Origin: Panopea generosa
Taxonomy: Eukaryota; Mollusca; Bivalvia; Adapedonta; Hiatellidae
DNA: 64,000 bases
Assembly (NCBI GenBank): GCA_029582155.1
Contig: CM055897.1
Span: forward strand, 2,835,001 to 2,899,000
Reading direction: 5' to 3'
Positions 5,195 through 63,560 of the stretch are shown here, piece by piece. Both the position numbers and the translations under genes were made by a program. Position 1 is the stretch's first letter. Each line of letters starts with the position of its first letter. Under the pieces are notes generated by a model. That model ran no database searches and was not told where the DNA came from. It worked only from the letters and a program-made list of their open reading frames with translations.

Positions 5195-8100
5195 CAACAT
5201 TGGTGTTCAATACCAAGATATATGATGTATGGCAGTTCAACTCCAAGATATATGATATATGATATATGACAGTTCAACTCCAAGATATATGATATATGAC
5301 AGTTCAACTCCAAGATATTTTATGTATGACAGTTCAATTCCAAGATATATGATGTATGACAGTTCAACTCCAAGATATATGATGTATGATAGTTCAACTC
5401 CAAGATATATGATATATGACAGTTAAATTCCAAGATATATGATGTATGACAGTTCAATTCCTAGATATATTGTGTATGGCAGTTCAACTCCAAGATCTAT
5501 GATGTATGACAGTTCAACTTCAAGATATATCTTGTATGGCAGTTCAACTCCGAGATATATGATGTATGGCAGTTCATTTCCAAGATATATGATGTATGAC
5601 AGTTCAACTCCAAGATATATGATGTATGGCAGTTCAATTCCAAGATATATGATGTATGGCAGTCCAACTCCAAGATATATGATGTATGGCAGTTCAACTC
5701 CAAGATATATGATGTATGACAGTTCAATTCCTAGATATATGATGTATGGCACATCTACTCCAAGATATATGATGTATGGCAATTTAATTCCCAGATATAT
5801 GATGTATGACAGTTCAACTCCAAGATATATGCTGTATGGCAGTTCAATTCCAAGATATATGATGTATGGCAGTTCAACTCCGAGATATATGATGTATGAC
5901 AGTTCAATTCCTAGATATATTATGTATGGCAGTTCAACTCCAAGATATATAATGTATGACAGTTCAATTCCAAAATATATGATGCATAACCGTTCAACTC
6001 TAAGATATATGATGTATTGCAGTTCAATTCCAAGATATATGATGTATGGCAGTTCAACTCTACGACATATGATGTATGACCGTTCAACTCCAAGATATAT
6101 GATGTATTGCAGTTCAACTCCAAGAAATATGATGTATGACAGTTCAATTCCTAAATATTTTATGTATGGCAGTTCAATTCCAAGATATATAATGTATGAC
6201 AGTTCAATTCCAAGATATATGATGTATGACAGTTTAATTCAAGATATATGATGTATGACAGTTCAACTCCAAGTAGATGATGTATGACAGTTCAATTCCT
6301 AGATATATGATATATGGCAGTTCAACTCTAAGATATGTGATGTATGACAGTTCAACTCCAAGATATATGATGTATGGCAGTTCAATTCCAAGATATATAA
6401 TGTATGACAGTTCAATTCCAAGATATATGATGTATGACAGTTTAATTAAAGATATATGATGTATGGCAGTTCAACTCCAAGATATATGATGTATGGCAGT
6501 TCAACTCCAAGATATATGATGTATGGCAGTTCAACTCTAAGATATGTGATGTATGACAGTTCAACTCCGAGATATATGATGTATGACAGTTCAATTCCTA
6601 GATATATTATGTATGGCAGTTCAATTCCAAGATATATAATGTATGACAGTTCAATTCCAAGATATATGATGTATGACAGTTTAATTCAAGATATATGATG
6701 TATGACAGTTTCATCCAAGATATATGATGTATGGCAGTTCAACTCCAAGATATATGATGTATGGCAGTTCAATTCCTTGATATATGATGTATGGCAGTTT
6801 AACTCCAAGTAGATGATGTATGACAGTTCAATTCCTTGATATATGATGTATGGCAGTTCAATTCCTTGATATATGATGAATGACAGTTCAACTCCAAGAT
6901 ATATGATGTATGACAGTTCAATTCCAAGATATATGATGTATGGCAGTTCAATTCCTTGATATATGATGAATGACAGTTCAACTCAAAGATATATGATGTA
7001 TGACAGTTCAACTCCAAGATATATGATGTATGGCAGTTCAATTCCTTGATATATGATGTATGACAGTTCAACTCCAAGTAGATGATGTATGACAGTTCAA
7101 TTCTTAGATATATGATGTATGACAGTTCAACTCCAAGATATATGATGTATGGCAGTTCAATTCCTTGATATATGATGAATGACAGTTCAACTCAAAGATA
7201 TATGATGTATGGCAGTTCAACTCCAAGATATATGATGTATGGCAGTTCAACTCTACGACATATGATGTATGACCGTTCAACTCCAAGATATATGATGTAT
7301 TGCAGTTCAACTCCAAGAAATATGATGTATGACAGTTCAATTCCTAAATATATTATGTATGGCAGTTCAATTCCAAGATATATAATGTATATCAGTTCAA
7401 TTCCAAGATATATGATGTATGACAGTTTAATTCAAGATATATGATGTATGACAGTTCAACTCCAAGTAGATGATGTATGACAGTTCAATTCCTAGATATA
7501 TGATTTATGGCAGTTCAACTTCAAGATATATGATGTATGGCAGTTCAACACCAAGATATATGATATATGGCAGTTCAACTCTAAGATATGTGATGTATGA
7601 CAGTTCAACTCCGAGATATATGATGTATGGCAGTTCAATTCCAAGATATATAATGTATGACAGTTCAATTCCAAGATATATGATGTATGACAGTTTAATT
7701 AAAGATATATGATGTATGGCAGTTCAACTCCAAGATATATGATGTATGGCAATTCAACTCTAAGATATGTGATGTATGACAGTTCAACTCCGAGATATAT
7801 GATGTATGACAGTTCAATTCCTAGATATATTATGTATGGCAGTTCAATTCCAAGATATATAATGTATGACAGTTCAATTCCAAGATATATGATGTATGAC
7901 AGTTTAATTCAAGATATATGATGTATGGCAGTTCAACTCCAAGATATATGATGTATGGCAGTTCAACTCCAAGATATATGATGTATGGCAGTTCAATTCC
8001 TTGATATATGATGTATGGCAGTTTAACTCCAAGTAGATGATGTATGACAGTTCAATTCCTAGATATATGATGTATGGCAGTTCAATTCCTTGATATATGA

Positions 8101-8985
8101 TGAATGACAGTTCAACTCCAAGATATATGATGTATGACAGTTCAATTCCAAGATATATGATGTATGGCAGTTCAATTCCTTGATATATGATGAATGACAG
8201 TTCAACTCCAAGATATATGATGTATGACAGTTCAACTCCAAGATATATGATGTATGGCAGTTCAATTCCTTGATATATGATGTATGACAGTTCAACTCCA
8301 AGTAGATGATAGTATGACAGTTCAATTCTTAGATATATGATGTATGACAGTTCAACTCCAAGATATATGATGTATGGCAGTTCAATTCCTTGATATATGA
8401 TGAATGACAGTTCAACTCCAAGATATATGATGTATGGCAGTTCAACTCCAAGATATATGATGTATGACAGTTCAACTCCAAGATATATGATGTATGGTAG
8501 TTCAACTCCAAGATATATGATGTATGGCAGTTCAACTCCAAGATATATTATGTATGGCAGTTCAACTCCAAGATATATGGTGTATGGCAGTTCAACTCCA
8601 GGATATATGATGTATAGCAGTTCAACTCCAAGATATATGATGTATGGCAGTTCAACTCCAAGATATATGATGTATGGCAGTTCAACTCCAAGATATATGA
8701 TGTATGACAGTTCAACTCCAAGATATATGATGTATGGCAGTTCAACTCCAAGATATATGATGTATGGCAGTTCAACTCCAAGATATATGATGTATGACAG
8801 TTCAACTCCAAGATATATGATGTATGACAGTTCAATCCATGATATATTATGTATGACAGTTCAATTCCAAGATATATAATGTATGATAGTTCAGCTCCAA
8901 GATATATGATGTATGATAGTTCAGCTCCAAGATATATGATGTATGATAATTCAATTCCAAAATATTTGTTCAACACCAAGATATG
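5195..8985. repeat. 3.8-kb array of a 30-bp minisatellite
   Basis: About 125 units with core GATATATGATGTATGGCAGT followed by TCAACTCCAA. Most differences between units are transitions at two columns (TGGCAG/TGACAG and AACTC/AATTC), with a third variable spot (CCAAG, CCTAG or CCTTG). Units near 6232, 6440, 6690, 7432, 7700 and 7910 have lost one base (TTTAATTCAAG or TTTAATTAAAG). Because 30 is divisible by 3 and the unit has no stop, long ORFs with a 10-residue repeat appear on both strands. The unit differences are mainly amino-acid-changing and the one-base losses break the frame, so I do not call a gene. Confidence 0.97.
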
Positions 8986-13313: not shown

Positions 13314-15645
13314 ATGAAATATACACTGAACAGAACAGCTAACCCGCCGCTATTGAAAGAAACAACTAAACCGCCACTACTGGACGGAACAGCTAACCAG
13401 CAACTACAGGACGGAACAGTAACCCACCACTTATGTACGGAAGAGCTAACCCGCCGCTACTGTACGGAACAACTAACCAGCCACTACTGTACGGAACAGC
13501 TAACCTACCACTACTGAACAGAACAGCTAACCGCCACTACTGGACGGAACAGCTAACCCGCCACTACTGTACGGAACAGCTAACCTGTTACTACTGAAAG
13601 GAACAACTAAACCACCACTACTGATCGGAACAGCTAACCCGCCACTACTGATTGGAACAGCTAACCCGCCACTACTGGACGGAACAGCTAACCTGCCACT
13701 ACTGAAAGGAACAACAAAACCGCCACTACTGATCAGAACAACTAACCCGCCACTACTGTACGGAACAGCTAACTAGCCACTACTGTACAGAACAACTAAC
13801 CAAACACTACTGTATGGAACAGCTAACCCGCCACTACTGTACGGAACATCTAACCCGCCACTACTGATCGGAACAGCTAACCCGCCACTACTGATCGGAA
13901 CAACAAAACCGCCACTACTGGACGGAACAGCTAACCTGCCACTACTGAAAGGAACAACAAAACCGCCACTACTGATCGGAACAACTAACCCGCCACTACC
14001 GATCGGAACAGCTAACCCGCCACTACTGATCGGCACAGCTAACCCGCCACTACTGGACGGAACAGCTAACCCACCACTACTGGACGGAACAGCTAACCCA
14101 CCACTACTGATCATAACAGCTAACCGGCCACTACTGATCGGAACCGCTAACCAGCCACTGCTGAAAGGAATAACTAAACCGCCACTACTGATCGGAACAG
14201 CTAACCCGTCACTACTGATCGGAACAGCTAACCCGCCACTACTGGACGGAACAGCTAACCCACCACTACTGATCGTAACAGCTAACCCGCCACTACTGTA
14301 TGGAACAACTAATCCGCCACTACTGTATGGAACAACTAATCTGCCATTACTGTACGGAACAGCTAACCCGCAACTATTGTATGGGACAGCTAACCCGCCA
14401 CTACTGTATGGAACAGCTAACCCGCCACTACTGTATGGAACAGCTAACCCGCCACTACTGTATGGAACAGCTAACCCGCCACTACTGTATGGAACAGCTA
14501 ACCCGCCACTACTGTATGGAACAGCTAACCCGCCACTACTGGACGGAACAGCTAACCCACCACTACTGATCGTAACAGCTAACCCGCCACTACTGTATGG
14601 AACAACTAATCTGCCATTACTGTACGGAACAGCTAACCCGCCACTACTGTATGGAACAGCTAACCCGCCACTGCTTTATGGAACAGCTAACCCGCCACAA
14701 CTGTACGTAACAGCTAACCCGCCACTACTGATCGGAAGAGCTAACCCGCCACTACTGGACAGAACAGCTAACCCACCACTACTGGACGGAACAGCTGACC
14801 CACCACTACTGGACGGAACAGCTAACCTGCCACTACTGATCGGAACAGCTAACCCGCCACTACTGATCGGAACCGCTAACTAGCTGCTACTGAACGAACA
14901 GCTAACACGCCACTACTGATCGTAACAGCTAACCTGCCACAACTGTACGGAACAACTAATCCGCCACTACTGTACGGGACAGCTAACCCGCCACTACTGT
15001 ATGGAACAGTTTACCCGCCACTACTAAACGGAACAGCTTACCCGCCACAACTGAACAGAGCAGCTAATCCGCCACTACTGTACGGAACAGCTAACCCGCC
15101 ACTGCTGAACGGGACAGCTAGCCCGCCACTACTGAACGGAACAGCTAACCCGCCACTACTGTACGGAACAGCTAACCCGCCACTACTGAACGGAACAGCT
15201 AACCCGCCACTACTGTACGGAACAGCTAACCCGCCACTACTGAACGGAACAGCTAACCCGCCACTACCGAACAGAAAGCTTACCCGCCACTATTGTACGG
15301 AACATCTGACCCACCACTACTGTACGGAACAGCTAGCCCGCAACTACTGTACGGAACAGCTGACTCGCCACTACTGTACGGAACAGCTAGCCCACCATTA
15401 CTGAACGGAACAGCTGACCCACCATTACTGAACGGAACAGCCTTCCCGTCACTACTGTACGGAACAGCTAACCCGCCACTACTGAACGGAACAGCTTACC
15501 CGTCACTACTGTACAGAACAGCTAGCCCGTCACTACTGTACGGAACAGCTAGCCCGCCACTCCTGAACGGAACAGCTTACCCGTCACTACTGTACGGAAC
15601 AGCTAGCCCGCCACTCCTGAACGGAACAACTTACCCGCCACTTTA
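13314..15645. repeat. 2.3-kb array of a 27-bp minisatellite
   Basis: About 86 units with constant core GGAACAGCTAACCCGCCACT. Variation is concentrated in two slots: the triplet after CTACTG (TAT, TAC, ATC, GAC, AAC or AAA) and the triplet after GCT (AAC, AGC, TAC or GAC). Read in the plus frame this is a nine-residue repeat x-G-T-A-x-P-P-L-L, open for 168 codons at 14380-14883 and 117 codons at 15293-15646. Single-base losses (for example near 13408 and 13528) interrupt the frame elsewhere. No promoter, splice signal or signal peptide supports a gene, so I call it a minisatellite. Confidence 0.95.
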
Positions 15646-23540: not shown

Positions 23541-23581
23541 AAATAGTAGAGCGAGGTTCATTCAAATTTTGCTTCACAAAA

Positions 23582-24716
23582 CATGGTGACGGGAGGTGGG
23601 GGGGGGGGGGGGGACACAGTACATGATGACGGAAGGTGGGGGTGGGTGGTGAGTGGGGACACAGAACATGGTGACGGGAGGTGGGGGTGGGTGGTGAGTG
23701 GGGACACAGAACATGGTGACGGAAGGTGGGGGTGGGTGGTGAGTTGGGACTCAGAACATGGTGACGTGAGGTGGGGGTGGGTAGGTGAGTGGGGACACAG
23801 AACATGGTGACGGAAGGTGGGGGTGGGTGGTGAGTGGGGACACAGAACATGGTGACGGGAGGTGGGGGTGGGTGGTGAGTGGGGACACAGAACATGGTGA
23901 CGGAAGGTGGGGGTGGGTGGTGAGTGGGGACACAGAACATGGTGACGGGAAGGTGGTGGTGGTGGGTGGGGACACAGTACATGGTGACGGGAGGTGGGGG
24001 TGGTGGGTGGGGACACAGTACATGGTGACGAGAGGTGGGGGTGGGTGGTGAGTGGGGACACAGAACATGGTGACGGGAGGTGGGGGTGGTGGGTGGGGAC
24101 ACAGAACATGGTGACGGGAGGTGGGAGTGGGTGGTGCTGACACAATACATGGTGACGGGAGGTGGGGGTGGTGGATGGGGACACAGAACATGGTGACGGG
24201 AGGTTGGGGCGGTGGGTGGGGGACACAGTACATGGTGACGGGAGGTGGGGGTGGTGGGTGGGGACACAGTACATGGTGACGGGAGGTGGTGGTGGTGGGT
24301 GGGGACACAGTAAATGGTGACGGGAGGTGGGGGTGGTGGGTGGGGACACAGTACATGGTGACGGGAGGTGGGGGTGGGTGGTGCTGACACAGTACATGGT
24401 GACGGGAGGTGGGGGTGGTGGGTGGCGACACAGAACATGGTGACGGGAGGTGGGGGCGGTGGGTGGGGACACAGTACATGGTGACGGGAGGTGGGGGTGG
24501 TGGGTGGGGACACAGTACATGGTGACGGGAGGTGGTGGTGGTGGGTGGGGACACAGTAAATGGTGACGGGAGGTGGGGGTGGTGGGTGGGGACACAGTAC
24601 ATGGTGACGGGAGGTGGGGGTGGTGAGTGGGGATACAGAACATGGTGACAGAAGGTGAGGGTGGTGGGTGGGAACACAGTACATGATGACGGAAGGTGGG
24701 GGTGGGTGGTGAGTGG
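23582..24716. repeat. 1.1-kb G-rich 41/45-bp minisatellite
   Basis: About 26 units with core ACATGGTGACGGGAGGTGGG followed by a GT/GGG-rich segment and GGGGACACAG. Units are mostly 45 bp left of about 23940 and 41 bp to the right. In the right part a six-unit block of about 247 bp is duplicated: the variant TGCTGACACA recurs at 24135 and 24382, and the variant AGTAAATGG at about 24309 and 24555. The 41-bp unit contains four G-runs of at least three with loops of 4, 4 and 1 bases, a canonical G-quadruplex pattern. The minus strand lacks stops, giving 300-384-codon Pro/Thr/His ORFs that I regard as spurious. Confidence 0.95.
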
Positions 24717-26040: not shown

Positions 26041-27340
<1,300 letters not shown>

Positions 27341-30548: not shown

Positions 30549-31014
30549 GTAAGTCACAGACTTTGTTTTAGTGTTAGTAAACATTTAAAACATTTAATTG
30601 GGAACTTATTGTACTGTTATATTGTTGATTTGATTTGTTTCACACATTCATGAATTGAATCATAACTGCTTTATACATATCCTAAACTATTAAACGTTTT
30701 TGTTCATGTGATATTTTTAATAACAGGTAAAGTTTGGTGATTTCCACTGTTCTAAATACTCGATTTTGAAACTATACCCGTGATATATAGATTTTATACA
30801 TAACATCGGCGAAGGTAAATAAACGTTTTAAAAGACATGTCACAAAATGTCAAAGAATGTACTTTAAAATGGGAATTTCAAAATTGTTTTATTGTTGAGG
30901 AAGTAATGAGAAAGAGATGTTTTACGTATTAGGTCACGTTACACTTTCAGTAATTATTCAAATATCCGGTTTATGAAGTAGTTGTTATTTATATTTGTGT
31001 TTGTTTAATTTCAG
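30549..31014 (+). other. Predicted 5'-UTR intron of the bZIP gene
   Basis: Donor ACT|GTAAGT at 30549 and a T-rich acceptor TTTAATTTCAG ending at 31014 give a 466-bp intron placed 8 nt before the start codon. Translating back through the junction, the frame stays open to about 30443 but contains no ATG, so exon 1 would be non-coding in the main frame. A four-codon upstream ORF (ATG at 30540) would be completed across the junction and stop 2 nt before the main ATG. Confidence 0.55.
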
Positions 31015-31022
31015 ATATAAAA

Positions 31023-31805
31023 ATGTGTGACGCAGTGTTGGACTTGTCGGCGAAGTTCACGTCGTCGGACGGTGGATATTCCCGACGGTCTCTCTCAAAT
31101 GGCACACCACCATCACCTCACACCCCCAGGACACCGATTCGTCATACGTCGTCTTCCGACGGCAACGACAGCGACTCGTCTCTACCAAGCTCTGCAATAA
31201 AACCAGTAGCTGGTCCGGTACCGACAAGATTGCGAGATTCGCCGGTATCGGGCCCGGAGATTCACGATCAGCCAGATTCACCATCGTCACCGACGCTCTC
31301 ATCCGCCGGCGAAAATCGACCGTTTAAATCTTACCCAATGGACTCAATGGCGAATTTGTTTGCCTCTCAATCGTCATCATTATTATCTGGTCAATCATCT
31401 GCATTGCCGACGATGGGTCTTCCCGTCGGTTTAGGAATATCATCACTATATGACACTAATTCGTCGTTTCCGTCGTTTCCAATCACCCCATTAACATCTC
31501 ATTTGTTGCAAAGAAAACGCAGGGCTGAAAGTCGAACACATGGACATAGTGACAATACATCAGATTCCGAAAGTAAAAAACTGAAACATGTGCCTGAAGA
31601 AAAGAAAGATGGATCCTACTGGGAAAGAAGAAGAAAAAACAATGAGGCAGCAAAGAGATCACGTGACACGCGTAGACAAAAGGAAGAAGAAATAGCAATG
31701 AGGGCAGCGTTCTTGGAACAAGAAAATTTAAAATTGCGTGCCCAAGTGGCCATATTGAAAAATGAAACAGCTAAATTACACTATATGTTATATAACAGAT
31801 TATGA
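31023..31805 (+). CDS. PAR/CES-2-like bZIP transcription factor
   Basis: A 260-residue protein in one uninterrupted exon, predicted to bind DNA as a nuclear dimer. Residues about 195-220 form the basic region: [20 protein letters not shown] contains the NxAAxxSR DNA-contact signature. A zipper follows with leucines at 231, 238, 245 and 252, and the protein ends eight residues later. The [15 protein letters not shown] and [12 protein letters not shown] segments are characteristic of the PAR family (HLF, TEF, DBP) with fly giant and worm CES-2. NFIL3/E4BP4 shares the basic region but differs in the zipper. I cannot identify a PAR domain, so CES-2/giant-like is as likely as true PAR. The first 160 residues are Ser/Pro-rich and low complexity with several S/T-P sites (residues 28-38), followed by a basic patch QRKRR (163-167), a possible nuclear localisation signal. 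Family members commonly recognise TTAYGTAA-type sites; the target genes here are unknown. The start is the first in-frame ATG after a good splice acceptor. GC content is higher than the flanks, as expected of real coding DNA. Confidence 0.93.
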
Positions 31806-39696: not shown

Positions 39697-39787
39697 TCTT
39701 TACTTATAAAATCGTTTAGATTTTTCAGAATAGGACATTCCATTGTACATAGAATGTCATGACCGTCGGTAGATGTTGATCTACTTC
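39697..39787 (+). repeat. Host repeat copy A, left half (split by the foldback element)
   Basis: The sequence ATCGTTTAGATTTTTCAG, ACATTCCAT, CATGACCGTCGGTAGATGTT, GATCTACTTC aligns with the reverse complement of 42300-42440 and with 63165-63262. The homology to those copies is interrupted at 39787 and resumes at 40919. Confidence 0.75.
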
Positions 39788-40918
39788 CTACGGTGTCCCG
39801 TTGAGGCCATCGCGGCATATTTATTAAATTAAGTAAAGTCGAAACAACGAAACTACGATGGTGAAAAGTCGATACAACGATGGTGAAAAGTCGAAACAAC
39901 GATGGTGAAAAGTCGTAACTACGATGGTGAAAAGTCGAAATTACGATGGTGAAAAGTCGAAACATTCATCGTTGTTTCAACTTTTCACCATCGTAGTTCG
40001 GTTTTTCACCATCGTTGTCTCGACTTTTCACCATCGTAGTTTCGCGTTTTCACCATCATAGTTTCGACTTTTCACCATCGTTGTTTCGCGTTTTCACCAT
40101 GTAGTTTCGACTTTTAACCATCGTTGTTTCGTGTTTTCACCATCGTAGTTTCGCGTTTTCACCATCGTACTTTGTGTGTGTGTATGTGTGAGAGAGAGAG
40201 AGAGACAGAGAGAGAGAGAGGGGGGGGGGGGGAGAGACAGAGAGAGACAGACAGAACGAGAGAGAGAGAGAACGAATGAACGGAGGGATGGAGGGAAGGA
40301 GTGAGAGATGGAGGAAGGCAGGAATATTAAGTACTGTTCGTTGTTTATTGTATTTTGTTATACTGATAACAAGTTAATTACCGAAAACTTACACGATTAA
40401 TTACTCTTAATCTAATATGATCTAAATGATTGCGAATTACATCTTATATAGCTACTTGTACTGACGGCTCAATTTAAGTACAAAACAGCAATAAGTAAGT
40501 TAGTCATTCAGTCAGTCAGTAACAAAGTAAGTGAGCAAATGAATTAATGAGCAAACAAACAAATCAGTCATTCAGTCATCAATCAAACGATCAACGAATC
40601 AATAAATCGATAAATAAATTACTGATTCGTCCATGCTTTTAATTTTGACTGCGCATGAGAAACAGGAAGGCAAATGACTACGATGGTGAAAAGTCGAAAC
40701 TACGATGGCGAAAACGCGAAACTATGATGGTGAAAAATGATTTCGACTTTCACCATCGTTGTTTCGTTGTTTCGACTTTTCACCATCGTAGTTTCGACTT
40801 TTCACCATAGTTGCGACTTTTCACCATCGTTGTTTCGACTTTTCACCATCGTAGTTTCGTTGTTTCGACTTTACTTAATTTAATAAATATGCTGCGATGG
40901 CCCCAACGGTACACCGTA
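39788..40918. mobile_element. Foldback-type transposon with subrepeated inverted ends
   Basis: The two ends are inverted copies: 39789 onward (TACGGTGTCCCGTTGAGGCC ... ATTTATTAAATTAAGTAAAG) matches the complement of 40918 backward over at least 84 bp with three differences. Inside each end are tandem 22-bp units with core ACGATGGTGAAAAGTCGAAA: about five forward then nine or more reversed on the left (39844-40172), and three forward then five reversed on the right (40676-40863). The middle holds GA/GT and poly-G microsatellite (40170-40320), unique AT-rich DNA, and a degenerate tetranucleotide tract (40490-40620). There is no ORF, so it must be non-autonomous. ACTTC flanks both sides (39783-39787 and 40919-40923), a probable 5-bp target duplication. 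This matches the plan of foldback (FB-like) elements; the responsible transposase is unknown. Confidence 0.88.
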
Positions 40919-41000
40919 ACTTCATCCGTCAATGAAATCGCTCCAGGAATGAAAAAGTATACCAAAATCTAAACCGGTTAGAAGTTACATGGAATTTTCT
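40919..41000 (+). repeat. Host repeat copy A, right half
   Basis: ACTTCATCCGTCAATGAAATCGCTCCAGGA continues, in the same order, the homology to copy B that broke off at 39787. Beyond about 40945 the similarity to copy B changes orientation (GGTTAGAAGTTAYATGGA is direct in both), so the host repeat is itself partly palindromic or was rearranged. Confidence 0.7.
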
Positions 41001-42254: not shown

Positions 42255-42440
42255 AGATGCCGAGCTACGTAAAGGTTAGAAGTTATATGGATTTTTTAAC
42301 GCCAGGTTAATATGTTGATCTACGTTCTCGTTCCTGGAACGATTTCATTGGCCGAGAAAGTAGGTCAACATCTATTGGTGGCCATGACCTTCTACGAAAA
42401 TGGAATGTTCTATTTTAAAAAATCTGAGCGAATTTATTGG
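42255..42440 (-). repeat. Host repeat copy B (uninterrupted)
   Basis: The reverse complement has GAACATTCCATTTTCG, GGTCATGGCCACCAATAGAT, GTTGACCTACTTTCTCGGCC and AATGAAATCGTTCCAGGAAC in one block. It is the paralogous empty site for the foldback insertion in copy A. Around its centre TGTTGATCTACGTTCTCG and CGAGAAAGTAGGTCAACA form imperfect inverted arms. Confidence 0.75.
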
Positions 42441-47694: not shown

Positions 47695-47976
47695 AAAGTT
47701 GTATTATTAATGGGTTTTATATGAGTATAAACATATATGATATCATGCGTTGTATTTTTAATGGGTTTTATATGAGTATACATATATATGATATTGTATG
47801 TTGTATTATTAATGGATTTTATGTGAGTATACATATATATGATAGTATACGTTATATTATTAATGAGTTTATATGAGTATACATATATATGATAGTATAC
47901 GTTATATTATTAATGGGTTTATACTAGTATACATATATATGATATTGTGCCTTATATTATTAATGGGTTTATACGA

Positions 47977-48018
<42 letters not shown>

Positions 48019-49935
48019 GCGTTATATTATTAATTGGTTTTATATGAGTATACGTATATATGATATTGTCCGTAGCATTATTAATGGGTTTTATGCGAGT
48101 TTACATATATATGATATTGTGCGTAGTATTATTAATTGGTTATAGGAGTATACATGTATATGATATTGTCCGTAGTATTATTAATGGGTTTTATAGGAGT
48201 ATACATGTATATGATATTGTCCGTAGTATTATTAATTGGGTTTAAAGGAGTATACATATATATGATATTGTCCGTAGTATTATTAATGGGTTTTATAGGA
48301 GTATACATGTATATGATATTGTGCTTAGTATTATTAATGGGTTTTATAGGAGAATACATGTATATGATATTGTCCGTAGTATTATTAATGTTTTTTTACG
48401 AGTATAAATATATATGATATTGTGCGTTATATTATAAATGGGTTTTATACGAGTATATATACATATGATATTGTGCGTTGTATTATTAATGGATTTTATA
48501 TGATAGTATATAGCTATGATATTGTACGTTGTATTATCAATGGGTTTTATATTAGTATATATGTGTATGATATTGTGCGTTATATAATTAATGGGTTTTA
48601 TATGAGTATACATATAGATGATATTGTCCGTAGTATTATTAATGGGTTTTATATTGGTATACATATATATGATTGTATACGTTATATTATTAATGGGTTT
48701 ATATGAGTATACATATGTATGATAGTATATGTTGTATTATTAATGGGTTTTATACAAGTATCTCAAGCAGACACCGTCGCGATATGACTGAAAAATTGTT
48801 AAAAGCGACGCTAAATACCATACAACAACAATATTTATACGAGTATACATATATACGTTATATTATTAATTGGTTTTATACGAGTATACATATATACGTT
48901 ATATTATTAATTGGTTTTATACGAGTATACATATATACGTTATATTATTAATTGGTTTTATACGAGTATACATATATACGTTATATTATTAATTGGTTTT
49001 ATATGAGTATATATATATATGATAGTATACGTTATATCATAATGGGTTTTATATGAGTATATATACATATATGATATTGAGATAGTTCTATTATTAATGG
49101 GTTTTAAATCAGTATACATATATATGATAGTATACGTTATAGTATTACTTGGTTTATATGAGTATACAGATATATGATATTGAGATAGCTCTATTATGTA
49201 TAGGTTTATGCCAGTATACATATATATGGTATCGTGCGTTGTATTATTAATGTGTTTTTATGTGTATACATATAATGATAGTATACATTTTATTATTAAT
49301 GTTTATATGAGTATACATATATATGATAGTAAACGTTATATTATTAATGGGTTTTTATGAGTACACATATATATGATAGTATACGTTATATTATTAATGT
49401 TTTTTTATGAGTATACATATATATGATAGTATACGTTTTATTATTTATGTGTTTTTATGAGTATACATATATATGATAGTATACGTTATATTATTAATGT
49501 GTTTTTATGAGTATACATATATACGATAGTATACGTTATATTATTTATGGATTTTATGAGTATACATATATATGATAGTAAACGTTATATTATTAATGGG
49601 TTTTTATGAGTATACATATATATGATAGTATACGTTATATTATTAATGTGTTTTTATGAGTATACATATATATGATAGTATACGTTATATTATTAATAGG
49701 TTTTTATGTGTATACATATATATGATAGTTTACGTTATATTATTTATGGGTTTTTATGAGTATACATATATACGACAGTATACATGAGTATACATATATA
49801 TGATAGTATACGTTATATTATTAATGTTTTTTTATTAGTATACATATATGATAGTATACGTTATATTATTAATGGGTTTATATGAGTATACATATATATG
49901 ATAGTAGATGTTATATTATTAATGTTTTTTTATGA
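47695..49935. repeat. 2.2-kb array of a ~51-bp AT-rich minisatellite
   Basis: About 43 units with core GAGTATACATATATATGATA flanked by TATTATTAATGGGTTTTAT. A regional shift is visible: GTCCGTAGTATTATTAAT units with TAGGAGTATACATGTA dominate at 48060-48370, while AGTATACGTTATATTATTAA units dominate to the right. A pure TA tract lies at about 47980-48010. Interrupted by a SINE fragment at 48765-48835. ORFs on both strands are repeat translations. Confidence 0.95.
48763..48833 (+). mobile_element. SINE 3' fragment inside the 51-bp array
   Basis: GACACCGTCGCGATATGACT, GAAAAATTGTTAAAAGCGAC and GCTAAATACCATACAACAAC with a CAA tail. This matches the 3' end of core-type molluscan SINEs I recall, and its GACGCTAAATA is shared with the 3' end of the 1195-1445 SINE. 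The array continues on both sides. Confidence 0.75.
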
Positions 49936-49945
49936 ATATGCATAT

Positions 49946-49965
49946 ACTGAACGGAACAGCTAACC
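49946..49965 (+). repeat. Single stray unit of the 27-bp minisatellite
   Basis: ACTGAACGGAACAGCTAACC is an exact 20-base match to units of the 13.3-15.6 kb array (for example 15131-15150), 34 kb away, placed exactly between the 51-bp array and a LINE 3' end. Confidence 0.8.
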
Positions 49966-60797: not shown

Positions 60798-60984
60798 GTA
60801 AATGAGGATGGAGAATCTGTAAAACTATGTTTCCCAAACCGATTACATAATCACGGATTCAGATCAGATTTAAATCCCATCAGTCCATCAAGTGATCTTA
60901 AAAATAAAAATAATATTAAAACAGTAAACTCGAAACATATCAGATCATATTCGATTCATGGAGCAAACTAAACTACATATCATA

Positions 60985-61455
60985 TGCCTATAAGTAACAT
61001 ATTATATGCATGTGAGTAACAGATTTTATGCCTGTAAGTAACAGATTATATGCCTGTAAGTAACAGATTATATGCATGTAAGTAACATATTATATGCATG
61101 TAAGTAACAGATTTTATGCCTGTAAGTAACAGATTATATGCCTGTAAGTAACAGATTATATGCATGTAAGTAACATGTTAAATGGATGTAAGTAACATAT
61201 TATATGCATGTAAGTAACATATTATAGGCATGTAAGTAACAGATTATATGCCTGTAAGTAGCATATTATATGCATGTAAGTAACATATTATATGCCTGTA
61301 TGTAACAGATTATATGCATGTAAGTAACAGATTATATGCCTGTAAGTAACATATTATATGCATGTAAGTAACATATTATATGCCTGTATGTAACAGATTA
61401 TATGCATGTAAGTAACAGATTATATGCCTGTAAGTTACAGAGTATATGCATATAA
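60985..61455. repeat. 22-bp minisatellite
   Basis: About 21 units with core TAAGTAACAGATTATATGCC plus TG. Variants ACAT/ACAG and GCCTG/GCATG alternate in a patterned way, suggesting duplication of multi-unit blocks. Confidence 0.95.
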
Positions 61456-63095
61456 GGCCCATGGTTCCTCTTTGATCCTTACTTATGTTTTTAAAACGCT
61501 TGTATTGTGTAGCAAGTGAATAAACTATTGTTTAAATCCAAAGAAATTAATATGCTTATTAAACTTCTTTGTCTTCATATATCGGCCTCTGTTACAGTCA
61601 ACATGATGGGATGCCAATTTTACCAGACATGTAAACACATACTGCCAATCTAGGCTGAAACAAGCGCCAACGTTACCTCGATGAACATCACCGGTACGAC
61701 ACGTCTCGTCAATTACGAAGATAGATGGTATTTTTGACAAGAAAATTTGAATGTGAACATCGTATGAACTTATAATTATTAGCCGAGCAGGTCAAGAAAA
61801 CACAGACGTTGTGAGATCAGATGATTAGAAATGATTCAAGCGTCGGGTAAACCGAGGTGAAACCGATCAAATGCACTTACAAAGGAACTCATAAAATTGA
61901 GTTAGCGAGAGTACCACATTGGTCACGTGACCTTCCACCACAGACGAATGAAAATTAAAGAAAGATGAACCGTATGGAAAATAATTAACTTATTCAACCT
62001 AATGGATCTTGTGGCAGTTTAAATGGCTTAGTGACAAACAATGATAGATGTACGTTTTCAGTAATTTCCTGAAGTTAACTAATAAATATAAGTATTGCAC
62101 GTTTGGCGAATTGCACACTTCCATGCAATGTTCCAGCGTGTATGTGTTAGGTTTGTATTGCGTATAACATTTATTGGCTGATTTAATAATTACCCAATTA
62201 GTTTATCTAATCACGGAATATTGACTAGATAAATGTTCCCAATGCGTACATAGCAGTCCATGCAGTCGGCGCGGAGGCGTCAGAGATAATGTTGAAACAT
62301 TTGATAAGATTGTATTTGCCTGAATTATTGGACATCGAAGAGAGACGCTTGTTGCAGAACGATTAGAATTGATAAGAAGAACGATTGGTTCATATTAGAG
62401 TGATAAGGTAGTGCTTATGCCATAATGTTCCAGTGTTTGTGCGTTGTGGAATCGAGCTAACAATGATGCCATGTGACAAGATTCCCTACAAGATTAGAAT
62501 CCCCACAGATCCGTGCAGGGTTTCATAGCATGGGGTGATTCCAGTTTTCCCATAAATGCTAGGCAGAATCAATAAAACAAAGAAACATGATAGCTGGTAA
62601 TATTTTATTGCCATTTCCTATAATAATCACACTGTGAGCAAACGCTCGTTGGGTCATCTTGCAAATATGCAAATAAGCAAGGTCACAGGCCGGGCAAAAC
62701 GCGTCAGCTGTCCAGTTGAATTGCTCAATCATGTGACACCTGTTGCAACTCTCGAGGGTCATGGAAAATAACCATAGAGCACACATGGATTGGTATGTTA
62801 CGTTAAACTGTCATACATTATATTTCCCAATGTCGACGTAACATATAGTTCGGTCCACATGTATACTAGCTATATGGTTGAGAATAAACTTGATTTAGCT
62901 TGTTTTTTTAAACGAGACCATTAACTTTAAACATTACATTTTTGTTCCTAAAATTTGGCCAATTTTCAGTGAGCACGTAGAATATATTTTCATTCTGACA
63001 GCGTGTAGATAAAGAAATATACCACAAGAACATGGTACATTTTTGACAAATAGCTAAACGTAAAAACAATTTTAAATTTTTCAGAACATTCACTA
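61456..63095. other. Unassigned sequence
   Basis: ORFs at 61525-61740 (-) and 62559-62786 (-) contain several cysteines but no motif I can assign and no splice support. Confidence 0.45.
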
Positions 63096-63099
63096 CGTC

Positions 63100-63560
63100 T
63101 CAAGAGTATGAAACATTCATTACGTTACACTGGACCATCAAACCAGTAAATCAGATGTTGCCCTACTATCTCAACCAATACAATCGCTCAGATTTTTCAA
63201 AAAAGACCATACTATATTACATGACCGCCAGTAGATGCTGACCTACTATGTCAGCTAATGAAAACGCACATGAAAAAAAAAAGTAGATCAACTGTTGGAC
63301 AGTAATTATGTCACACCTACGAGATTATTATACATTCATTTCAGCACACCAGCAATACTTTGGACCAATTATAACGTCATAACAATCATTACGTCACACT
63401 AACAAGACTACAGAACAGTCATTAAGCCACATCAACAAGACGACATAACGTAAGAATATAGCACATGTAGCACGTCTCAACGCGATTGGAGAATATTTAT
63501 TACATCACACCGATAAGACGATGAAACCATTATTAAGTTTTTAAATCTGTATGTTAATTT
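63100..63560. repeat. Degenerate dispersed/tandem repeat region
   Basis: Loose repeats of the phrase CATTACGTCACACYAACAAGAC (at about 63115, 63387, 63420, 63492) at irregular spacing of about 25-35 bp or multiples, strongly eroded. Confidence 0.5.
63165..63262 (+). repeat. Host repeat copy C
   Basis: CAATCGCTCAGATTTTTCAA, CATGACCGCCAGTAGATGCT and GACCTACTATGTCAGCTAAT align with host copies A (39697) and B (42440 reversed). It is uninterrupted at the position where the foldback element sits in copy A, so it is a second empty-site paralogue. Confidence 0.65.

Follow-up and report, generated by a model that had tools for sequence, protein, structure and literature searches.

Positions 39789–40918 of the window, the 64,000-nucleotide stretch of Panopea generosa DNA analyzed here, hold a real, mobile, and non-coding foldback element of 1,130 bp. 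Judged from its sequence, the element is probably a non-autonomous DNA transposon of IS3EU type with a foldback architecture, a placement based on its terminal signature, the length of its terminal inverted repeats (TIRs), and the length of its target-site duplication. At either end, 22-base repeats have expanded into a separate hairpin, an unusual design that does not amount to a new class of mobile DNA.

Architecture of the Window Copy

The outer terminal inverted repeats lie at 39789–39844 (forward strand), starting with TACGGTGT, and at 40863–40918 (reverse strand), finishing with ACACCGTA, which gives the window copy the termini TACGGTGT...ACACCGTA and an outer inverted repeat of ∼56 bp per end before the arrays begin. 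Each was delimited by alignment to the opposite end and by the boundary of other copies, which in the fetched loci is usually TACGG, with some variants. Alignment of the left end to the reverse complement of the right end gives three differences in the first 84 positions and a fourth directly beyond position 84, in agreement with the original prediction of a ∼1.13-kb element with inverted ends of at least 84 bp differing at about three positions.

Between the outer ends, 22-bp arrays called by Tandem Repeats Finder surround a linking tract and a core. From the left, these are a forward array of 5.3 copies of the unit CGAAACAACGATGGTGAAAAGT (39848–39964, forward strand), a reversed array of 9.5 copies of the same unit (39967–40173, reverse strand), a GT/GA simple-repeat tract linking array and core (40174–40300, with the GA tract at 40190–40271), the non-coding core (40301–40676), a second forward array of 2.7 copies (40677–40736, forward strand), and a second reversed array of 4.5 copies (40764–40859, reverse strand). 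Folded alone as DNA, the left end region (39789–40173) has a z-score of −17.9, with 0 of 100 shuffles as good, and the right end region (40677–40918) one of −9.7, with 0 of 200 shuffles as good; the array calls and the folding together bear out the earlier description of each end as a hairpin of 22-bp subrepeats in forward and then reversed order. As to selection on a folded strand, compensatory changes were seen at 0 of 30 pairs in the fold of four aligned left ends, in which the window piece stopped at the turning point and the alignment barely reached the reversed units. The core majority sequence contains stops in all six frames, and a frame of locus L013 running over the core and an extra ∼470-bp segment had no Pfam match at E 1, on which grounds a coding core was rejected. 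The element thus has the long inverted ends made largely of tandem subrepeats, and the middle part devoid of coding capacity, that define the foldback type.

Insertion Site and Target-Site Duplication

The window copy is flanked by ACTTCC on the left (39783–39788) and ACTTCA on the right (40919–40924), a 6-bp duplication with one mismatch that is recognized as such from the 6-bp duplications of other copies; from the window copy alone, duplications of 5 and 6 bp are indistinguishable. The original prediction had read a 5-bp duplication, ACTTC, under which one C on the left has no partner; the 6-bp reading is preferred because both ends then begin with TACGGTGT and because it agrees with the other copies. 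Among 40 loci (39 fetched plus the window), exact 6-bp duplications were found in 10 of the 19 two-ended loci, exact duplications of 3, 4, 5, 7, 8, 9, or 10 bp in none of them, and, in a control with re-paired flanks, exact 6-bp matches in 0 of 342 pairings; the best-matching pair was used where one locus had several. The 5-bp duplication was rejected on this count, 0 of 19 two-ended loci being exact at 5 bp against 10 of 19 at 6 bp.

A wider set of 53 loci, to which no control was applied, contained 26 loci with two full ends within 3 kb (28 pairings), and by best pairing 13 of the 26 were exact at 6 bp, seven had one mismatch (the window included), and six had two, which places 20 of 26 within one mismatch. 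Locus L054 was excluded from this count, its left end starting at TIR position 7. Loci L040, L041, and L045 have an identical left flank and are therefore not independent insertions; none has an exact duplication. All three lie on contig C6 at about 73.87–74.03 Mb, where a segmental duplication is probable, and L041 has an additional inward-facing end ∼1.15 kb past its right end.

An empty site was reconstructed by excising the element together with one duplication length and joining what remained on either side. This joined sequence aligns to a paralogue of the host repeat at 42305–42437 (reverse strand) with 105 of 134 positions identical and one 1-base gap, and to a second, more distant paralogue at 63178–63291 (forward strand) with 84 of 124 identical and one 10-base gap; both gaps lie away from the insertion point, which is ungapped in both alignments, as had been claimed for these two empty sites. 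The window copy is best explained as a shortened member of the long form that inserted into an older repeat. In the host repeat, a 23-bp piece at window positions 40976–40998 matches 42274–42296 at 21 of 23 positions (E 0.001) and is turned around relative to the remaining repeat sequence in one of the two copies; either a small inversion occurred locally or the match is due to chance.

Elsewhere in the window, an open frame at 30954–31805 with a bZIP domain (bZIP_2, E 1.5e-16) probably represents one exon of a transcription-factor gene of the host. Long tandem arrays occupy 5205–8965 (30-bp unit), 13325–15642 (27 bp), 23581–24705 (41 bp), 26146–27340 (3 bp), 47698–49946 (about 50 bp), and 60975–61456 (22 bp), and the long frames across several of them look like repeat artefacts.

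Copies in the Genome

The genome searched comprises 1,474,161,289 bases in 39 contigs. A query with the whole element gave 4,418 first-look candidates, the best 40 of which were scored (387 matches), and 39 loci other than the window were fetched; a query with 62 bp of TIR yielded 2,005 candidates, of which the best 40 were likewise scored, 12 loci were fetched in addition to L048 taken from the search itself, and 20 further places were not included. The fetched loci are the best-scoring copies and not a random sample, and their arms and ends resemble those of the window by selection. Across the whole genome, 405 ends match TACGGTGTCCCGTTGGGGCCATCGC with no more than one mismatch (215 forward and 190 reverse) and are spread over many contigs, whereas the control pattern, read backwards, has 0 matches in either orientation. 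Within the window, a 14-base end pattern with up to three mismatches matches 21 times against a shuffle mean of 11.95 (2 of 100 shuffles reached as many), and the two ends of the element are the only matches without a mismatch. In viral contigs, two subrepeat patterns, one inner-TIR pattern, and one TIR-end pattern had 0 matches each.

Among the fetched loci, no transposase or autonomous copy with TACGGTGTCCCGTTGGGGCCATCGC ends was seen; no integrase was recognized by eye in the frames listed, and four frames of the fetched loci were run against Pfam. No transposase was recognized in the frames of L053, L057, and L061, loci that, together with L050, were also set against the remaining loci.

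Family Architecture

In these similarity-chosen loci, a reversed unit, scanned for as the unit motif with up to two substitutions, is reached within 600 bp by 72 of 78 full ends, with 0 to 13 forward units ahead of it (none in three of the 72). The turning point is the exact palindrome GAAAT(C/G)ATTTCGA in 14 of these 72 ends, lies within two substitutions of it in 13, and differs in 45, so that remaking or erosion of this point has been frequent. The core was found in every one of the 40 loci from the whole-element search (the window is one of them), with a mean pairwise distance of 0.083 and a divergence of 1.7 to 6.7% from the majority sequence. By our own reading, the forward array starts at the same place in 33 of the 35 copies in which the match to the core extends to its end (in the other five of the 40 it breaks off earlier), a pattern suggesting a single founding long form. 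All or part of the extra ∼470-bp segment occurs in 35 of the 40 loci, the exceptions being the window copy, L009, L024, L036, and L037; matches of 33–34 bp to the segment represent the 22-bp unit and were left uncounted. Locus L037 carries ∼2 kb of reversed 22-bp units (L037:1335–3531), a possible satellite seed. A 476-column stretch shared by L035 (2722–3196, following the internal segment) and L053 (5168–5642) is 94% alike in the two loci; no frame across it reached a curated Pfam cut-off, and it is possibly captured host sequence.

In general, the two arms within a copy are no more alike than arms of different copies. Over the outer 58 columns of 19 copies, the mean number of mismatches is 5.84 within copies and 6.03 between them, and 287 of 2000 permutations were as low, so that these data do not support concerted evolution between the arms of a copy.

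Short, compound, and rearranged copies accompany the long forms. Core-less palindromes of 223–746 bp with 6-bp flanks occur at five loci, one with an exact duplication (L060) and four with flanks one mismatch off (L051, L056, L058, and L059). Loci L052 and L055, whose duplications are exact, retain part of the core and resemble long forms that have undergone deletion. Locus L034 has the order end-F-R-(inner end)(inner end)-F-R-core-F-R-end (F, forward array; R, reversed array), with the inner end fragments back to back and an exact 6-bp duplication at the outermost ends, and reads as a compound of a short and a long element. In L028, the right part contains an inverted copy (L028:2546–2937) of the left end of the same locus together with 18 bp of its left host flank, with one mismatch in the flank and 345 of 393 positions (88%) identical over the aligned stretch; since the copy includes the element's own host flank, copying probably took place after insertion. 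The short forms may be ancestral to the long forms or may be deletion products of them. This series, from 223-bp palindromes through long forms of 1.1–2.0 kb to a compound, a ∼2-kb array, and the flank capture in L028, makes it possible to test from sequence how foldback arms originate and how satellites are seeded.

Proposed Mechanism and Alternatives

An IS3EU-type, integrase-like transposase made elsewhere in the genome probably recognizes the ∼56-bp outer ends (TACGG..CCGTA). The element would then be excised and reinserted by cut-and-paste with a 6-bp stagger, duplicating 6 bp of the target. The 22-bp units may have arisen by tandem expansion of the sequence just inside the outer end, which is the simplest origin because the units continue the inner part of that end, and the forward-then-reversed arms may have formed by inverted copying, as in L028, or by the joining of neighboring palindromes, as in L034. 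The internal repeats of Galileo have been described as holding extra transposase-binding sites (as cited in the consulted portion of PMC4079207), and a similar role could be a reason for keeping the repeats here.

How the double arms came together is a matter for tentative proposals. One account, which we put forward as possible and rather less than probable, is that an IS3EU lineage independently evolved a double-foldback compound design, in which short palindromes are mobile alone, joined compounds move by their outermost ends, and inverted copying, which can run on into host DNA, rebuilds the arms in place. Another, to which we give the same limited credence, is that two short palindromes (end-F-R-end) once flanked a core, lost their inner ends, and moved as a unit. 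The core-less palindromes with 6-bp flanks, exact in L060 and one mismatch off in L051, L056, L058, and L059, speak for such a compound origin, as does L034 with its inner ends and its exact outermost duplication; the short forms may, however, equally be deletion products, since the long form carries its two R arrays, and likewise its two F arrays, as direct repeats; L052 and L055, with exact duplications and a remnant of the core, look like such deletions; and L034, a single copy, is perhaps a late compound and not an ancestor.

That the sequence is a rearranged satellite and not a mobile element is scarcely credible. Arrays of the 22-bp unit can grow long, as the ∼2 kb of reversed units in L037 illustrates, but the boundary is fixed, the ends lie on many contigs, and this reading was rejected on the empty site, the 6-bp duplications, and the 405 matching ends. 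The original prediction had held that a satellite would be indicated by genome copies lacking a common boundary at TACGGTGT or a consistent duplication; the boundary proved to be common and the 6-bp duplications consistent.

Class Assignment and Comparison With Known Systems

Drosophila FB elements have subrepeated inverted ends, as the element does, and differ from it in their 9-bp duplications and other ends. A foldback of Mutator or P type, like FB, Tm1, Tetris, and Galileo, is a very improbable identity for the element, even though the general plan of long inverted ends built of tandem subrepeats, as described for Tetris and Tm1, is the same (PMC4079207 and PMC3169594, in the portions consulted). 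The duplications of Tetris and Tm1 are 8–10 bp long in those portions, while 0 of 19 two-ended loci here are exact at any length from 7 to 10 bp and the ends match IS3EU; a Mutator-type foldback, for which duplications of 8, 9, or 10 bp are characteristic, was rejected on duplication length. Tetris, a foldback of Drosophila virilis assigned to Mutator by its authors, has a ∼220-bp unit and 8–10 bp duplications, and resembles the element in being apparently non-autonomous, with tandem repeats inside inverted ends and some satellite-like arrays; its ends are common to a smaller MITE, DAIBAM (PMC4079207, in part). Similarly, Tm1, a Mutator/Foldback family of root-knot nematodes with mostly 9-bp duplications, shares composite inverted ends with a short tandem unit and the presence of MITE-like and longer forms in one family, but it has a unit of 13–15 bp, asymmetric outer motifs and a Phantom-like Mutator transposase (PMC3169594, in part).

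Among the matches listed from the literature searched, with Repbase, Dfam, and most subscription journals outside its scope, no IS3EU foldback family was found. The words foldback and IS3EU occurred together in one paper, PMC8268682, the former in a reference title and the latter in two table rows, and text searches with the TIR and subrepeat letters gave nothing related by title among the matches listed. IS3EU has already been connected with tandem repeats in the literature, as far as the partial texts of two papers go: the oyster satellites CgiSat35 and CgiSat47, with units of 690 and 129 bp, are labelled DNA/IS3EU (PMC8268682), and half of the beetle TCAST10 sequence is 86% similar to IS3EU (PMC5844308). 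All three repeats are likened to the element by description and not by sequence, and, unlike the element, none of them is described with inverted subrepeat arms in those texts.

The closest likeness is to the IS3EU/GingerRoot group of integrase-like DNA transposons. In the excerpts consulted, TA..TA termini are invariable and 6-bp duplications usual among complete IS3EU families (PMC10045372), and IS3EU elements of rust fungi have TIRs of >30 bp ending in TAYGG..CCRTA and 6-bp duplications (PMC12730594). The termini TACGG..CCGTA fit this signature, the outer repeat of ∼56 bp exceeds 30 bp, and the duplication is exact at 6 bp in 10 of 19 two-ended loci and in 13 of 26 in the wider set. The original prediction, which could not assign the element to a class it could name, was right about the foldback type, the hairpin ends, and the empty site, and a probable name can now be given from termini, TIR length, and duplication length. 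The element departs from IS3EU/GingerRoot in its palindromic subrepeat arms, which the excerpts do not describe for IS3EU, and in that no transposase was recognized in the fetched copies. If a foldback family does carry IS3EU ends, the superfamilies in which the foldback design arises would come to include an integrase-like one.
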